A stretch of DNA of 64,000 bases from Ruminococcaceae bacterium BL-4 (GTDB lineage Bacteria > Bacillota > Clostridia > Oscillospirales > Acutalibacteraceae), in NCBI GenBank assembly GCA_902809935.1, contig LR778134.1:620001-684000 (forward strand), in the 5' to 3' direction. Both the position numbers and the translations under genes were made by a program. Numbering within the stretch: the stretch's first letter is position 1; each line of letters opens with the position of its first letter. Positions 20,834 to 47,941 of this stretch are shown piece by piece. The notes below the pieces were generated by a model. That model saw only the letters and a list, made by a program, of their open reading frames with translations. It was not told where the DNA came from and did no database searches.

Positions 20834-22612
20834 TTATTTTTGTTTTGCAATTTGAATTCCAAGTTCATTGAGCTGTTTTTGATCGACTTCGGTAGGTGCT
20901 TCCGACATCAGTTCTGCCGAAGACGCAACCTTCGGGAATGCAATTACATCACGAATAGAATCGCAGTTGAGCATCAGCATAACAAGACGGTCAAGCCCAA
21001 AGGCCATACCACCGTGCGGCGGGGCTCCAAAGCGGAACGCATCAATCAAGAATCCAAACCGGCGCTGTGCTTCTTCCGGTGTAAATCCAAGTGCTTTAAA
21101 CATGCGGCGCTGCAGTTCGGAATCATTGATTCTGATAGAGCCACCGCCGACTTCATTTCCGTTTAAAACCATATCATATGCTAATGCACGCACCGAACCG
21201 GGATCACTTTCGAGCCTGTCAAGATCCTCTGGATTCGGCATGGTAAACGGATGGTGCATTGCCATAAATCTTCCCTCTTCTTCGCTGTACTCAAAGAGCG
21301 GAAAATCAGTAATCCACAAAAGGCATGGCTTGCTGCCATCGATTAGGTTAAATCTGTGCGCAAGCTCACAGCGCAGAGCGCCCAATGTATCAAAGACCAC
21401 TTTGTTTTTCGGATCGGCAACAAAGAACAGTACATCTCCAGGCTGTGCATCCATCTTTTTACGCAGCGCTTCAACTTCTTCTGCCTTCAAAAACTTTTCA
21501 AAGCTGCTTGTCTCTTTTTCAGCAAGGCGAGTCCATGCAAGGCCCTTTGCCCCATAAGATTTCACCCATTCGCCCAGTTTATCAATCTCTTTGCGGGAAA
21601 GTGCCTGCGCCTGTCCCTTCAGATTGATTCCGCGAACACTTCCGGTTTTTAGTGCGCCGGAGAATACTTTAAATTCCGTATCTTTCAGGCACTCACTTAC
21701 ATCAGTTAGTTCCATCCCAAAACGCAGATCCGGCTTATCGGAGCCAAAACGCTCCATTCCTTCCTGCCATGTCATTCTGCGCAGCGGCAGCGGAATTTCA
21801 ATTCCAAGAATCTCGCGGTAAACTTTCTGGATAAAGCCCTCTGCAATCCCCATGACATCTTCCTGATTGACAAAGCTCATCTCAAAGTCGATCTGCGTAA
21901 ATTCCGGCTGACGGTCCGCACGCAGATCTTCATCGCGGAAACAGCGGGCAATCTGCATATAGCGGTCAAATCCTGAAAGCATTAAAAGCTGTTTATAAAG
22001 CTGCGGACTCTGCGGCAATGCAAAGAAATTGCCGGGGAACATCCGGGAAGGAACCAGATAATCTCTTGCGCCTTCCGGGGTGGATTTAATCAGGTCCGGC
22101 GTTTCAATCTCAACAAAGCCGTTTTCATCATAATAATCGTGTGCAACTTTAACAATCCGATGTCGTCCGATAATCTTCTTCTGCATATCCGGACGACGCA
22201 AATCCAAATAACGATATTTTAGGCGAGTATCTTCTTTTACATTGGAATTTTCTTCAATCGCAAAAGGCGGCGTTTCACTCTTCGAAAAGACACGCAGCTC
22301 CTGCACTTCTAATTCCACATCGCCGGTAGGAATTTCTTTATTTTTGCTGGTCCGCTCTCGTACAACGCCAACTGCCGCCAACACATATTCTGCACGCACG
22401 GAAAATGCTTTTTGAAATACATCTCGATTACAGCTCTCATCAAAAGCCAACTGCAAAATACCAGTGCGATCTCTTAAATCAATAAAAATCAGTTGTCCCA
22501 GATCTCGCTGACGCTGACACCAGCCGCAAACCGTAATTTTTTTTCCAACATCACTCAGGCGCACTTCACCGCAGTAACAGCTTCGTTTTAAGCCTGTCAT
22601 AAATTCTGCCAT
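20834..22612 (-). CDS. aspS: Aspartyl-tRNA synthetase
   Basis: The 592-residue protein charges tRNA-Asp (or tRNA-Asp and tRNA-Asn in non-discriminating forms). In order it has the OB anticodon-binding domain ([28 protein letters not shown]), a class II catalytic core with motif 2 ([23 protein letters not shown]), a GAD insertion at about residues 290-420, and motif 3 ([14 protein letters not shown]). Length and domain order are typical bacterial AspRS. The first gene of a three-gene unit, with an extended -10 promoter and a leader too short for a T-box. Whether it also charges tRNA-Asn cannot be told from the sequence alone. Confidence 0.97.
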
Positions 22613-22676
22613 GGTTTATAAACCTCCAAGATTGCAGGTCTTTTTTTAAAAGTCCTGCATTTCTAAATCATTTTTT

Positions 22677-22685
22677 ATTATAGCA
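22677..22685 (-). promoter_or_regulatory. Extended -10 promoter of aspS
   Basis: On the minus strand TGCTATAAT provides a TG-extended -10 about 65 bp before the aspS ATG; no good -35 is visible. The ~55-nt leader has a small TGCAGG/CCTGCA hairpin and no T-box elements. Confidence 0.5.
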
Positions 22686-22786
22686 CAGCCGTCTTCAGAA
22701 AGAAATCAACTTTTCAAAATTCTGCTTTTCTCAGCTTTGTTTTTTAAAAATTTTACACGATTTTATATACATTTTAAAAGACTATG

Positions 22787-22795
22787 TGGTATAAT
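22787..22795 (+). promoter_or_regulatory. Extended -10 promoter of the mgtE leader transcript
   Basis: TGGTATAAT gives a perfect -10 with TG extension; the -35 region is weak. Initiation near 22802 would yield a leader of about 270 nt before mgtE that includes a 26-codon ORF and an intrinsic terminator. Confidence 0.6.
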
Positions 22796-22847
22796 AAGAA
22801 CGTTCATGCAGAGATTCAAAAAAATCAAAATAAAGGAGGAGCACCAA

Positions 22848-22928
22848 GTGGACATCTATGACCGAAGCGCCCAAAATGACGATGACGTTCCTTTATGGAC
22901 GACCATTTTAGCTCGATTGATTTTTTAA
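22848..22928 (+). CDS. 26-residue leader peptide upstream of mgtE
   Basis: A GTG codon lies 8 bp behind a near-perfect AAAGGAGG and opens 26 codons ending in TAA. The peptide has an acidic middle, QNDDDVPLW, and a hydrophobic end (TTILARLIF). Runs of Asp/Glu next to Pro at the start of nascent chains are known to destabilise translating ribosomes when Mg2+ is low, as for the enterobacterial MgtL leader. This peptide sits between the promoter and a terminator ahead of a Mg2+ transporter gene. The last bases of its ribosome site plus the next six (22839-22847) can pair with 22942-22950, just beyond the stop. The codons 22914-22938 around the stop can form a small hairpin. No homologue is recognised; the coding status is inferred from site, position and composition. 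Confidence 0.6.
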   Translation: MDIYDRSAQNDDDVPLWTTILARLIF

Positions 22929-22969
22929 TAAATCATCGGCTTTGGTGTTCGTTTTTCATAAGGACTCGT

Positions 22970-23018
22970 TATGGCTGTGCGCAATTTTTAAAAAGTAATT
23001 TGCGCATAGCTATTTTTT
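22970..23018 (+). terminator. Intrinsic terminator/attenuator in the mgtE leader
   Basis: Arms TATGGCTGTGCGCAA (22970-22984) and TTGCGCATAGCTA (23000-23012) pair with G-U wobble, followed by six T. It lies between the leader ORF and mgtE, with no second good promoter seen downstream. mgtE transcription must therefore read through it, which makes it a probable attenuator. Confidence 0.75.
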
Positions 23019-23073
23019 CGCCGTTTGGGGTTCTCTGTCTCTTTACTTAAAAAGCGAAGGAGGGACCTCCCAT

Positions 23074-24432
23074 ATGGACAATTTTAACAATGAAGACCTC
23101 AAAAATCGGCTTCTGGAATTTTTAAGCCAGCGCAACTTTGCATCCGTACGCAAACTGCTCGACGATATGAACGAAGTAGATATCGCCGAACTGCTGGAAA
23201 AATTACCGGCCGAAAAATCGATTGTTGCATTCCGTACCTTGCCAAAAGAGGTGGCAGCCGAAGTTTTTTCCAATCTGGAGTCGGATACCCAGCAATATTT
23301 AGTGGAATCCATTACCGACCAGGAACTGCACGAAATTCTGGAAGATCTTTCGGTTGATGATGCAGTGGATATGGTCGAAGAACTGCCGGCCAACATGGTC
23401 AAACGTGTTTTAAAAGTCGCTTCTAAAGATACCCGCACACTGATCAATAAATTTCTGCAGTATCCGGAAAATTCTGCCGGCAGCATTATGACTGCGGAAT
23501 TTATGGATTTGCGGCGGAATATGACCGTCAAAGATTCCATCCGCAAAATCCGCCGTACAGGAGAAGACAGTGAAACTATTTATACCTGCTATGTGATCGA
23601 TGATCAGCGAATTCTACAGGGAATTGTTACCGTAAAAGATCTATTGCTTTCAAACGACGACTGCCCGATAGAAGAGCTGATGGACGAAGATATCATCAAA
23701 GCCACCACAACAGACGATCGAGAAGATGTCGCCAATAATTTTAGTAAATACGACCTTCTTTCCATGCCGGTAGTCGATAAAGAAAATCGTCTTGTAGGCA
23801 TTATCACCGTTGACGACGCTATGGACGTCATGGAACAAGAAGCCACCGAAGATATGCAGGTCATGGGCGCTATGGCCCCAGAAGAAACCCCCTATCTCAA
23901 GACCGGCGTTTTTCGGCTTGCTAAAAACCGAATCGTATGGCTTCTGATTCTGATGGTTTCCGGCATGATTAACGGATCCATTCTTAATAACTACGAGGCT
24001 GCATTTTCGGCAATGCCGATCCTAGTTTCCTTTATTCCGATGCTTACCGATACCGGCGGCAATGCCGGCAGTCAGTCAAGCACCATCATCATTCGCAGCA
24101 TGGCACTGGGAGAAGTCCAAATGCACGACTTCTGGAAAGTTCTCTGGAAAGAAATTCGAGTCAGTATCATGGTAGGCGTCATTTTAAGCGTGATCAATTT
24201 TGTTCGTCTAATTATTATTTATCCTGACCAGCCTTTAATTGCACTGACCATATCTCTTGCGATGATCTGCACCGTTATCATGGCAAAATCCATCGGTGGT
24301 GTACTGCCAATGATTGCAAAGGCACTGCATCTGGATCCTGCTTTGATGGCAGCGCCGCTGATTACGACGATTGTGGATGCGGTTTCCTTGATCATCTATT
24401 TCTCGATTGCAGCGCAGCTTCTTCATGTGTGA
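23074..24432 (+). CDS. mgtE: Magnesium transporter MgtE
   Basis: The 452-residue protein is a Mg2+-gated Mg2+ channel of the inner membrane. It has the superhelical MgtE N domain (about residues 1-130, with DDMNEVDIAELLEKLPAEKSI), two CBS motifs (about 135-255), a connecting helix, and five membrane helices. The signature PMLTDTGGNAGSQSSTIIIRS contains the pore-lining residues. Acidic residues at the N/CBS interface sense cytosolic Mg2+ in the family. Length is normal. The ribosome site GAAGGAGGG is partly self-complementary with ACCTCCC just before the ATG, which could lower initiation. Expression probably depends on the leader ORF and attenuator upstream. Confidence 0.96.
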   Translation: MDNFNNEDLKNRLLEFLSQRNFASVRKLLDDMNEVDIAELLEKLPAEKSIVAFRTLPKEVAAEVFSNLESDTQQYLVESITDQELHEILEDLSVDDAVDMVEELPANMVKRVLKVASKDTRTLINKFLQYPENSAGSIMTAEFMDLRRNMTVKDSIRKIRRTGEDSETIYTCYVIDDQRILQGIVTVKDLLLSNDDCPIEELMDEDIIKATTTDDREDVANNFSKYDLLSMPVVDKENRLVGIITVDDAMDVMEQEATEDMQVMGAMAPEETPYLKTGVFRLAKNRIVWLLILMVSGMINGSILNNYEAAFSAMPILVSFIPMLTDTGGNAGSQSSTIIIRSMALGEVQMHDFWKVLWKEIRVSIMVGVILSVINFVRLIIIYPDQPLIALTISLAMICTVIMAKSIGGVLPMIAKALHLDPALMAAPLITTIVDAVSLIIYFSIAAQLLHV

Positions 24433-44773: not shown

Positions 44774-44779
44774 AAGTAG

Positions 44780-44927
44780 GATTCGGTAGGTGAGGTTTTG
44801 CAGGGATATGGATTGTTGCCGCAGAGTGGTGGAGACACCATGGAGAAGGTTGGAGCAGGCTATATCGAACCTAAGGTGTAGCATAATACAGTTTCACTGC
44901 CCTGCAAAGCTAAAGCTCAAACGAAGA
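44780..44927 (+). ncRNA. M-box (ykoK) magnesium riboswitch aptamer
   Basis: The region has the conserved opening TTCGGTAGGTGAGG and the closing CTAAAGCTC (44910-44918) followed by CGAA that pairs with the TTCG. A 9-bp helix TTTGCAGGG (44797-44805) / CCCTGCAAA (44900-44908) matches the M-box P2. A GAGA-tetraloop hairpin TGGTG/CACCA (44827-44840) is present. Position relative to promoter, following terminator and a Mg2+ ATPase gene all fit. The M-box binds Mg2+ and promotes termination when Mg2+ is sufficient. Confidence 0.92.
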
Positions 44928-44948
44928 AGTCAGAAGTGCTTTTTTACA

Positions 44949-44990
44949 CTCCCATATATTCTTGACCGAATATATGGGAGCTTTTTATTT
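44949..44990 (+). terminator. Intrinsic terminator of the M-box riboswitch
   Basis: CTCCCATATATT (44949-44960) and AATATATGGGAG (44969-44980) are perfectly complementary, followed by C and T5ATTTTT. It is the expression platform directly behind the M-box. Confidence 0.92.
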
Positions 44991-45039
44991 TTCAGCATGT
45001 TTTGACATCTTTAAAATCGAAAATAATCTTTGATTCAAA

Positions 45040-45165
45040 CGGAGGTGAGAAGAATGGACTCTGGGAGTAGCAGCGGCACAGTCCCCGACGGATGGCCTAC
45101 ATCACAAATGAAAATCATGAAAAAGTCAAACCATGATTTCATTCTTCTCTGTATCTGATCCTCCG
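45040..45165 (+). promoter_or_regulatory. Self-sequestering leader structure around a 34-codon ORF
   Basis: The ribosome site and start of the small ORF, CGGAGG (45040-45045) and AGAAGAATG (45048-45056), are exactly complementary to CCTCCG (45160-45165) and CATTCTTCT (45140-45148) at the end of the ORF. A competing hairpin (45107-45119 with 45132-45143, 12 bp, one bulge) shares 45140-45143 with the second of these. The two folds are therefore mutually exclusive. Folding was judged by eye only. Confidence 0.55.
45054..45158 (+). CDS. 34-residue leader peptide between M-box and mgtA
   Basis: ATG with GGAGGTGAG at good distance opens 34 codons. The peptide begins [16 protein letters not shown], continues SQMKIMKK and ends NHDFILLCI. 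It has no signal peptide and no known domain. It lies after the riboswitch terminator and 74 bp before the mgtA ATG, so it is only transcribed when the M-box allows. Its ribosome site can be masked by its own 3' end. Together with the Pro-Asp and Trp-Pro pairs this suggests a regulatory peptide whose translation controls mgtA. A second CCTCC (45188-45192) could mask the GGAGG of mgtA (45220-45224). Coding status is inferred. Confidence 0.6.
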
Positions 45166-45232
45166 TCCTATAAAAAGTGCCATACTTCCTCCTTTTAGCA
45201 CATGTCAATTTGAAAAAATGGAGGTACGAGCG

Positions 45233-47941
45233 ATGAAAAAAAATCTAAAAACAGCTTTAACCAAAAAAAATCTCTTTACGGCAGATTCGTGTAGTACAGA
45301 AATTAAAAATCGTCTTTTATTTGCTTCGACTCACGATAAAACAGAAGTCTTGCAAGCGCTTGGTACCGGGGTTGCTGGATTAAACGAAGAAGAGGTTGAA
45401 TCCGCAAAAAAATCTTTTGGCAGCAACATCGTCATGCATAAAAAGAAGCAATCTCTTTTTAAAAGGATTTGCAGCGCTTTTATCAACCCTTTTACAGCAA
45501 TTTTATTTGTGCTTGCCATTATCTCGGTATTTACTGATATTCTTTTTACAGAACCGGGCCAACAAAACTATACAACCGTCATTATTATCGTAACGATGGT
45601 CATGATTTCTGGAGTTCTTCGCTTTATTCAAGAAACGAAAAGTGGAAATGCGGCTGCAAGCCTGTCCAAAATGATTCATACAACAACTTGCGTCGAGCGG
45701 CAGGAATCCGGCAAGCAGGAAATCCCTTTGGAAGATGTAGTAGTCGGTGACTTAATTTACCTTTCCGCCGGCGATATGATTCCAGCCGATCTTCGCATTC
45801 TCTCTGCAAAAGACCTGTTTATCAGCCAATCCGCCCTAACTGGAGAAAGCCAGCCGGTTGAAAAATATGGGACTCCTGTAAATGAGCAGAACTCTTTGAC
45901 GGAAATTTCGAATCTTGCTTTTATGGGAAGCACCGTGATCAGCGGAAGCGCCAAAGCGGTTGTGGTTGCTACCGGAAATGATACCATGCTCGGCCGCATC
46001 GCAAAAAGCCTCACGGAAAAGCCCCCCAAAACCAGTTTTGAAAAGGGAGTAAACTCTGTTTCATGGGTCCTTCTTCGGTTTATGTTGGTTATGGTACCGA
46101 TTGTCCTTTTCATTAACGGATTTACGAAGGGTGACTGGCTCAAAGCATTTTTATTTGCAATTTCTGTTGCAGTAGGTCTTACACCGGAAATGCTGCCCAT
46201 GATTGTGACTACCTGCCTCGCAAAAGGTGCTGTCGCAATGAGTCAAAAAAAGGTAATCATTAAAAGTCTTAATTCCATTCAGAATTTAGGCTCTATTGAT
46301 TTGCTCTGCACTGATAAAACCGGAACTCTCACACAGGACCGTGTGATTTTAGAGTCCCATCTGGATATCGAGGGCAATGAAGACTCCCGCGTACTGCGCC
46401 ATGCTTTTTTGAACAGCTATTTTCAAACAGGACTTAAAAATCTAATTGATCTTGCAATTATCTCAAAACAGAATGAATTAGGACCTGTCCCCATTGAAAA
46501 CGATTATCGGAAAGTGGATGAAATTCCATTTGACTTTAACCGTCGTAGAATGAGTGTTGTGGTCTCGGATAAAAACGGCAAAACGCAGATGATTACAAAG
46601 GGAGCCATTGAAGAAATGCTCAAATGCTGTTCCTATGCCGAGCTCCATGGAACAGTAAAACCGTTGACAAAAGAAGTCCGTTCCTTTGTCATTTCCAAAT
46701 CTGACGAACTAAATGCCTCCGGCATGCGCGTGATTGCGGTCGCACATAAAACAAATCCTGCTCCAGTCGGTGAATTTTCGGTAGCAGACGAAGACAACAT
46801 GGTATTGATTGGATTCCTTGCCTTTTTAGATCCCCCGAAAAAAACAACAGCTAAAGCAATCCGGGCACTTACCGAACACGGTGTTGCAGTCAAAATTCTG
46901 ACCGGAGATAATGAAAAAGTCACCTGCAGTATCTGCCGTCAGGTAGGGATTCCAGACAATCGTATGCTTTTAGGAAAAGATCTCGATAATATGACAGACG
47001 ATGAGCTTACCCAAAAAGCAGAAAAGGCAATGGTCTTTGCAAAGCTGTCTCCTGCTCAAAAGGCACGCGTGATTCAAATTTTTCGGCAAAATGGCCATGT
47101 CACCGGATATATGGGTGATGGCATCAACGACGCTGCCGCCATGAAAGTCGCCGACGTAGGTATTTCTGTTGATACTGCAGTAGATATCGCAAAAGAATCT
47201 GCAAATGTTATTATGTTGGAAAAAGACTTAATGGTTTTGGAAGACGGAATCATCGAGGGAAGAAAAACATACGCAAACATGATAAAATATATCAAAATGA
47301 CTGCTTCTTCTAATTTCGGGAACATGTTTTCCGTTTTGGCTGCCAGTGCATTTCTCCCTTTTCTTCCAATGGCCTCGATTCAGCTATTATTGCTGAACCT
47401 CATTTATGATATCTCCTGCACTGCGATTCCTTGGGACAATGTAGACCGGGAATATCTGCAAAAGCCGCGAAAATGGGATGCTTCTTCTATCAGCAAATTC
47501 ATGCTATGGATTGGCCCTACCAGCTCGGTATTTGATATTGCCACCTACCTTCTCATGTATTTTGTTATTTGCCCGATGATCTGCGGCGGACAGCTCTTTC
47601 CTCAAATCACGGACCCCTCTTTAAAACTACTTTATATCTCGACTTTTCAATCCGGATGGTTTGTAGAATCCATGTGGAGTCAATCTTTAGTGGTTCACAT
47701 GATCCGCACCCCTAAAATTCCATTTTTACAAAGCCGTGCTTCTGTGCCTGTGTTGTCTTTAACCGCATTTGCCATTTTTACGGCAACATTGATCGTATCT
47801 ACTCCTTTGGGATCATTTTTAGGGTTTTCTCCCCTCCCTCCGATTTATTTTGCATGGCTTTCCGCGATTGTTCTCGGTTATATGATACTCGCGACGATTG
47901 TCAAAAAATTATATATTAAAAGATATGGAGAGTTACTTTAA
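45233..47941 (+). CDS. mgtA: Mg2+-transporting P-type ATPase MgtA
   Basis: ATG at 45233 is preferred to the in-frame ATG at 45218, because GGAGG lies between them at proper distance to the second. The 902-residue protein is a type IIIB P-ATPase: actuator TGES ([10 protein letters not shown]), intramembrane [20 protein letters not shown], phosphorylation DKTGT ([13 protein letters not shown]), nucleotide-binding [12 protein letters not shown], hinge [12 protein letters not shown], and C-terminal helices with [20 protein letters not shown] typical of MgtA/MgtB. It imports Mg2+ when the ion is scarce. Upstream lie a consensus promoter, an M-box, a terminator and the leader ORF. Ends at a strong hairpin. 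Confidence 0.97.

Follow-up and report, generated by a model that had tools for sequence, protein, structure and literature searches.

A leader-peptide element before Mg2+ importer genes in Clostridia and its divergent copy upstream of mgtE

The mgtE gene in the window (the whole 64,000-nucleotide stretch analysed here, from contig LR778134.1 of Ruminococcaceae bacterium BL-4) is preceded by what its sequence suggests is a divergent copy of a leader-peptide element of Clostridia, and we consider it probable that this element acts as a ribosome-controlled attenuator of Mg2+ importers, switched ON when low Mg2+ slows translation of the leader. The element is widespread in Clostridia, stands almost only before mgtE or mgtA, and occurs a second time in the window, 22 kb from the mgtE copy, between an M-box riboswitch and mgtA.

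Leaders before mgtE and mgtA in the window

All features of the window given here lie on the + strand. An earlier note on this DNA had read the region before mgtE as a 26-codon open reading frame (ORF) with a strong Shine-Dalgarno (SD) sequence, followed by a terminator and the gene, and this order was confirmed. The leader SD, AAGGAGG (22833-22839), precedes an ORF of 26 codons with a GTG start (22848-22928; MDIYDRSAQNDDDVPLWTTILARLIF followed by a stop), recognised by ORF reading and family conservation. Its in-frame CGA codon (22863-22865) is codon 6 in the window's own sub-group and is mostly found at codons 12-14 elsewhere. The intrinsic terminator (22971-23018), identified by sequence reading and hairpin scoring, comprises a hairpin at 22971-23013 (roughly -20 kcal/mol) and a U-run that extends to 23018; it was missed by a simple scan for hairpins with loops of at most 8 bases, a limit that its loop presumably exceeds. 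The mgtE gene itself (23074-24432; MgtE_N, CBS, and MgtE domains) has its SD, by sequence reading, at 23057-23064, and a possible hairpin at 23025-23072 (-15.2 kcal/mol) may mask this site; pairing of the SD with the upstream stretch is not above shuffles at this locus, 727 of 1,000 being as good. As a whole, the fold of 22801-23090 beats 200 of 200 shuffles (z -3.7).

The extended -10 promoter proposed in the same note was recovered as a pattern match only: a promoter pattern scan placed TATACA-18-TATAAT, with TG preceding the second hexamer, at 22766-22795 (10 of 12 matches). There are 5 sites as good on both strands of 22500-23300 versus 1.7 in shuffles, and this promoter-like site is weak on its own. 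The description of the leader as lacking an M-box was correct, in that Rfam at gathering thresholds returned no match within it. With E values up to 10, only sub-threshold matches appeared (best E 2.1 to 2.7), and the RF00380 aptamer was absent at both thresholds.

The copy before mgtA was not covered by the note. Here an M-box riboswitch (RF00380; 44775-44935; Rfam, 89.3 bits) is followed by a terminator-like hairpin and U-rich stretch seen by eye (44950-44992) and then by the second leader (45054-45158), which encodes a 34-residue peptide and scores E 4.3e-7 in its own genome with model R1, described below, of which it is one of 41 training rows. The ORF listing begins the downstream mgtA-type P-type ATPase gene at 45218, and an SD at 45220-45226 favours a start at 45233 (45233-47941). 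With M-box, terminator-like hairpin, and peptide leader in tandem (44775-45158), mgtA appears to be preceded by two stacked elements that are both Mg2+-related but differ in nature.

Spread of the element and constraint on its peptide and codons

To describe the family, 72 mgtE upstream regions were drawn from the best-scoring matches in 181 of 300 family genomes and from a genus search. In 56 of these there is a short, SD-preceded ORF of the leader type, ten of which are doubtful; the encoded peptides start M-[DE] (one M-N) and continue mostly with Gly, Ser, and Asn, and two of them (L020 and L064) were added by eye. Among the 16 regions without a leader are those of second genes of pairs, M-box-only genes, and genes with nothing recognised. 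The sequence-only model R1 (69 positions) was built from 41 leaders, 40 before mgtE and one before mgtA, and omits 16 of the 56 ORFs, namely the near-duplicates L002, L003, L004, L007, L045, and L048 and the ten doubtful ones (L011, L012, L015, L037, L038, L050, L054, L058, L065, and L070).

R1 matched 114 of 300 family genomes at E <= 0.1; with the cut-off at E <= 0.001, it matched 54 of 394 genomes in the order, 26 of 391 in the class, and 7 of 299 in the phylum, these samples partly overlapping. Among 86 loci at E <= 0.001 (L118-L200 and L206-L208, including some training loci fetched again), an mgtE or mgtA gene stands behind the leader in 85, and the contig of the remaining one (L171) ends before any gene. 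The loci newly fetched in the class and phylum searches all precede importers (30 of 30; 27 mgtE and 3 mgtA); L233, also among the loci of these searches, is a training locus. That R1 finds more mgtE leaders is partly by design, which holds less for the mgtA finds and for the pattern scan below. Weak matches deserve less trust: among five at E 0.0019-0.009 (L201-L205), an importer is missing in four, and the fifth has just a distant P-type ATPase. No gene was assigned at 32 of 149 loci, which include those with only about 60 nt of mgtE, those with no real leader, L171, and the four weak ones.

The least biased test of gene specificity is a scan of 84,980 species genomes with a DNA pattern for the peptide core alone, requiring neither SD nor gene. 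It gave 113 matches, 97 before mgtE, 8 before mgtA, 7 at sequence ends that leave at most 169 nt, and one (L339) that has neither an SD nor an importer gene and is apparently a chance match; several of these loci come from the same organisms as training or earlier loci. The titles of 80 pattern matches name Clostridia or subgroups of it, Bacillota, and in one case a plain 'bacterium', and the named carriers include Herbinix hemicellulosilytica (Lachnospiraceae). Where enough upstream sequence was present, an M-box lies upstream of the leader at 7 of 62 mgtE and 4 of 6 mgtA loci, as counted with a regular expression that misses some. Rfam on 18 carriers gave M-boxes at two loci and no family covering the leader. 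The same searches placed a tRNA gene upstream of the leader at one locus (L163) and a ZTP riboswitch match on the other strand of another locus with an mgtE leader (L167:1777-1863).

The family consensus is MDAGSSxGTxPxGRS, of which the window's mgtE leader peptide, with D2, D5, D11-13, and P15, is untypical; although a training row, it scores only E 0.036 in its own genome with R1. Its closest relatives (98, 96, and 95% identical MgtE) have the same leader peptide with at most one change, the leaders of the next genus read MDLCGRSTKMDSGVPLR and the like, and many others follow the consensus. Because intermediates such as MDLCGRSTKMDSGVPLR connect the two, the window copy is, on its sequence, a divergent member of the family joined to the rest by intermediate sequences. 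Within the window's genus, a close mgtE copy is present in 4 of 11 genomes (its own included), with a fifth, partial match at E 2.7e-4; in two genomes of the genus without this close copy (G003 and G004), the leader stands before mgtA. One of two tandem mgtE copies elsewhere (G018:C82:25654-26985) contains an in-frame TGA.

The earlier note had pointed to the run N-D-D-D-V-P, which was not supported as a conserved sensing element. Among 217 leaders (those followed by an importer or truncated by a sequence end), DDD is found in the window's genus only (L001-L004), and the nearest other genus has MDSGVP, MDSDVP, or QDKDVS in its place; DDDD occurs in L203, a weak match without an importer. An acidic/proline run was likewise rejected as the conserved core, 61 of 105 non-redundant leaders with a gene having no acidic residue in positions 3-14. 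Common to the family are instead D or E at position 2, a Gly/Ser block, a proline within positions 3-18 (82 of the 105), and usually an in-frame CGA. The acidic residue 2 is found in 105 of 105 leaders, but the first search required GA at codon 2 and a later locator preferred G; two leaders (L064 and L214) have N2. At position 5, 82 of the 105 have Ser or Gly.

Conservation of the ORF at the protein level in relatives, the check suggested in the note, was borne out. In 133 leaders that share less than 80% of their first 60 nt and lie 90-330 nt from the gene, the observed/expected ratio of nonsynonymous to synonymous changes is 0.15 for codons 2-9, 0.46 for codons 10-15, and 0.85 for codons 16-25, where the ratios count pairs rather than events, the pairs are not independent owing to clade kinship, and the last value comes from 31 pairs only. 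Single changes in codons 2-9 are synonymous and nonsynonymous in the proportion 7709:3165, versus 2854:8020 expected, and the entropy of third positions in these codons exceeds that of first and second positions. Thus, amino-acid identity counts in the first nine residues and hardly at all in the C-terminal half. N-terminal amino-acid conservation could also be accounted for by a small protein that regulates the importer, in the manner of MgtR or MgtU, but the near-neutral C-terminal half beside nine constrained residues points to a leader rather than a small protein, the lengths vary from 20 to 50 residues (n=105), six leader peptides had no Pfam or NCBIfam match, and no membrane segment was seen in the peptides by eye; we regard this explanation as very improbable.

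Constraint also acts on nucleotides. In 196 leaders (those of the 105-leader type plus the pattern-scan leaders, excluding L339), an in-frame CGA lies within codons 5-18 in 173 and is absent there in 23. Of the Arg codons within codons 5-18, 191 of 350 are CGA, whereas further along the ORFs the figure is 20 of 202 and in mgtE genes 32 of 521; CGAAG occurs 123 times in frame and 11 times out of frame; and Ser is encoded as AGY in 555 of 633 cases in codons 1-18 versus 42 of 179 later. A nucleotide constraint on CGA and AGY therefore overlies the amino-acid conservation. Such constraint, together with the long pairings described below, would be expected of an untranslated RNA element, or a riboswitch, with an incidental ORF, but the conserved SD and start, the long open frames, the variation rich in synonymous changes, and the frame of CGA all argue against this reading, to which we give hardly any credence.

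The codon lock could alternatively mean that under Mg2+ shortage ribosomes pause at the fixed CGA and AGY codons and that the pause site sets the RNA fold, with the peptide mattering little. The preference for CGAAG in frame and the shifting place of CGA, at codons 5-8 or 11-18, are in line with such a codon sensor, and in a bacterial his-leader assay of Arg-Arg pairs, CGU and CGC were faster than CGA, while CGU too stalled in one context (PMC4046918). Against it, conservation in codons 2-9 is of the amino acids, the third positions being freer, 23 of the 196 leaders have no CGA in the stated range, and the AGY lock can follow from pairing of GGAAGUA, with CGAAGU complementary to ACUUCGUCC in one clade by eye. 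In the window's genome, ARAGORN named no tRNA-Arg with anticodon TCG among 54 of 55 tRNA matches; the tRNA-Arg genes have ACG, CCG, TCT, and CCT, which would leave CGA to an inosine tRNA. CGA is likewise read by an inosine tRNA in B. subtilis, where it is not a rare codon (PMC10454642), so that CGA would not necessarily be read slowly in the present organism. Taken together, we judge a pure codon sensor improbable. The leader alignments contain no run of one amino acid's codons of the kind used by amino-acid attenuators of the trp or his type.

RNA pairing, terminators, and the proposed control

MAFFT and RNAalifold gave no consensus structure for 68 mixed leaders, and pairing was instead assessed by ranking the duplex of two segments at their own locus against duplexes with that segment taken from elsewhere (14 pairs, at up to 133 loci). 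The leader ribosome site and the end of the ORF and beyond (1:3) have a median rank of 0.11, with 39% of loci in the best twentieth; the two pairs of 2:4, in which codons 3-12 or codons 12-18 meet the stretch that precedes the importer, have median ranks of 0.19 and 0.21; and the importer SD with that same stretch (4:5) has 0.20. Controls with a segment upstream of the leader gave 0.51 and 0.53, and pairs that no model needs gave 0.50 (ribosome site with codons 12-18) and 0.58 (SD with codons 3-12). Other pairs fell between, at 0.24 for the leader ribosome site with the later stretch, 0.24 for codons 12-18 and 0.36 for codons 3-12 with the inner stretch, and 0.35 for codons 19-27 with the later stretch; the ribosome site with codons 19-27 gave 0.20. 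Because pairs outside the model thus also outrank the upstream control, three helices do not give the full picture of the real fold. Similar values came from an earlier run on 103 loci (median 0.15; controls 0.44 and 0.43). In one clade (33 leaders; 29 realigned), the 1:3 helix appears, but segment 1 hardly varies, and for this reason covariation was not counted.

At the two loci of the window, 1:3 alone beats shuffles. Before mgtE, segment 1, the leader ribosome-binding site with the GTG start (22833-22852), pairs with segment 3, the anti-leader-RBS (22936-22956), at -21.6 kcal/mol, as good a duplex arising in 3 of 1,000 dinucleotide shuffles; the assignment of segment 3 draws on duplex energy, shuffles, and the family rank test. 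In the second copy, the anti-leader-RBS (45137-45167) pairs with 45038-45059 at -25.6 kcal/mol, equalled by 0 of 1,000 shuffles. A possible segment 4 before mgtE (22954-22973) may pair with leader codons 12-18 (22881-22900) at -14.8 kcal/mol; the wider pairing of segment 4 with the codons is equalled by 59 of 1,000 shuffles and is not secure at this locus. The corresponding sequence before mgtA, GUGCC-A-UACUUCC (45176-45190), complements both leader codons 4-9 (-16.2 kcal/mol) and the mgtA SD GGAGGUA (-12.2 kcal/mol), neither pairing being above shuffles at this single locus (389 and 217 of 1,000). Across loci, the sites of 2:4 and 4:5 overlap at chance level (0.83 versus 0.79 by chance placement). 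We take 1:3 with 4:5 and 2:4 as alternatives, because 2:4 crosses 1:3 and shares segment 4 with 4:5.

In the mechanism that we propose, formation of 1:3 and 4:5 would shut off the importer. A ribosome held on the first leader codons would keep segment 1 open, so that 2:4 could form and the importer ribosome site would be free, while a ribosome that runs through and leaves would allow 1:3 and 4:5 to re-form. Low Mg2+ would then slow or abort early elongation and the importers would be made; the signal, the step, and the direction are all our inferences, and the candidate Mg2+-sensitive features are Asp2, the Gly/Ser chain, and the CGA codon. For the mgtE copy in the window and part of the family, an intrinsic terminator would add a transcriptional layer, and before mgtA the M-box would add a direct Mg2+ sensor. 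A more far-reaching version, which we put forward only tentatively, is a ribosome-based Mg2+ gauge of Clostridia in which one leader peptide serves two unrelated importers, and in which weakly read fixed codons (CGA by inosine tRNA, AGY) and the Gly/Ser chain, in place of an acidic run, make early elongation Mg2+-sensitive, stacked behind an M-box in the case of mgtA.

The terminators could also be read as those of a translation-coupled attenuator, in which a ribosome close behind RNA polymerase covers the terminator hairpin, placed within the leader ORF or shortly after it, and lets the polymerase pass, so that slow or absent translation terminates and the importer is ON when translation is efficient. 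The window's mgtE leader carries a clear terminator, and terminator-like hairpins at or below -10 are found in 55% of the 105 leaders, versus 18% of mononucleotide shuffles. In 23 of 37 strong cases, the U-run lies within the ORF or within 5 nt of its stop; under simple coupling, a running ribosome would relieve such a terminator, giving a direction opposite to that proposed here. However, 45% of the leaders have no such hairpin by that score, some U-runs are, by eye, complementary to a GGUGAGAA-like ribosome site of the same leader (L135), meaning that the terminator signal may partly be 1:3 pairing, and importers would be expected to be ON when Mg2+ is short, which should slow translation. 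We consider this coupled attenuator rather unlikely, and a hairpin with U-run as a family-wide terminator is weakened on the same two grounds. By eye, terminator-like U-runs inside the ORFs of L135 and L130 complement their own GGUGAGAA or GAUAAAAAA ribosome site. The aligned leaders also share a recurring UUYUGCG-UYUGUUUUU-like stretch, in varying frame within the ORFs, which is perhaps a pause or anti-RBS signal.

Comparison with known systems

In enteric bacteria, Mg2+ sensing through leader translation has been worked out, and the MgtL leader of mgtA carries Glu2/Asp4 (EPDP), sharing an acidic residue 2 and a proline with the present leader. An EPDP-like acidic/proline N-terminal motif of the MgtL type is not a feature of the present family. 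The earlier note's proposal of a leader and attenuator like the enteric Mg2+ leaders stands as regards the anatomy before mgtE and the conserved protein, but not as regards the DDD run as sensor, and the best reading remains that the mgtE leader works like these enteric leaders.

MgtL is likewise a leader ORF before an Mg2+ importer, and its terminator is Rho-dependent (PMC11282234); in the Clostridia leader, by contrast, position 2 alone is acidic across the family, such terminators as were seen are intrinsic, and both mgtE and mgtA are targets. The M-box (RF00380) shares these target genes and lies upstream of the leader before the window's mgtA and some mgtE and mgtA genes elsewhere, but the leader is a separate downstream element, and that of the window's mgtE has no aptamer. 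The Rv1805A/uORF2 reading frame after mycobacterial M-boxes is also a conserved short ORF by an M-box with a conserved proline but is described as mycobacteria-specific and as itself the regulated ORF (PMC12810186). The mgtE motif SRC-65-1 is, as here, a candidate cis element before mgtE; it is reported from Thioalkalivibrio only and is classed as a riboswitch candidate, not a uORF (PMC11109978). No description of the leader was found in the literature searched, which leaves subscription journals and preprints outside and so does not prove its absence, and the string 'MDAGSS' occurs in no paper of that literature.

The closest parallel in layout is MgtQ, an 8-amino-acid uORF before mgtB of Salmonella, in which a ribosome slowed at Asp2/Glu5 keeps region 1 open, so that 2:3 forms in place of the alternative 1:2/3:4 fold and mgtB is translated (PMC8092293). 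Shared with the Clostridia leader are a short ORF with a strong SD before an Mg2+ transporter and an acidic residue 2; alternative RNA folds, one of which would mask the transporter's ribosome site as in MgtQ, are predicted for the Clostridia leader. The geometry of 1:3 and 4:5 versus 2:4 recalls the 1:2/3:4 versus 2:3 of MgtQ, and the same logic may apply. MgtQ differs in having 8 codons, in lying inside an operon, and in acting on mgtB at translation only; moreover, no sequence likeness was seen between the two, and the phylum differs. The Clostridia leader probably works like MgtQ and MgtL but is a member of neither, given its different sequence, targets, and phylum and, in most of the family, the lack of an acidic run. 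If this is true, a leader of unrelated sequence and comparable layout in a different phylum would point to a general strategy, perhaps reached independently. It would mark a second control element, beside the M-box, on the Mg2+ importers of many Clostridia sampled from rumen and gut, and it offers a simple way to ask whether what is sensed is the need of the ribosome itself for Mg2+.
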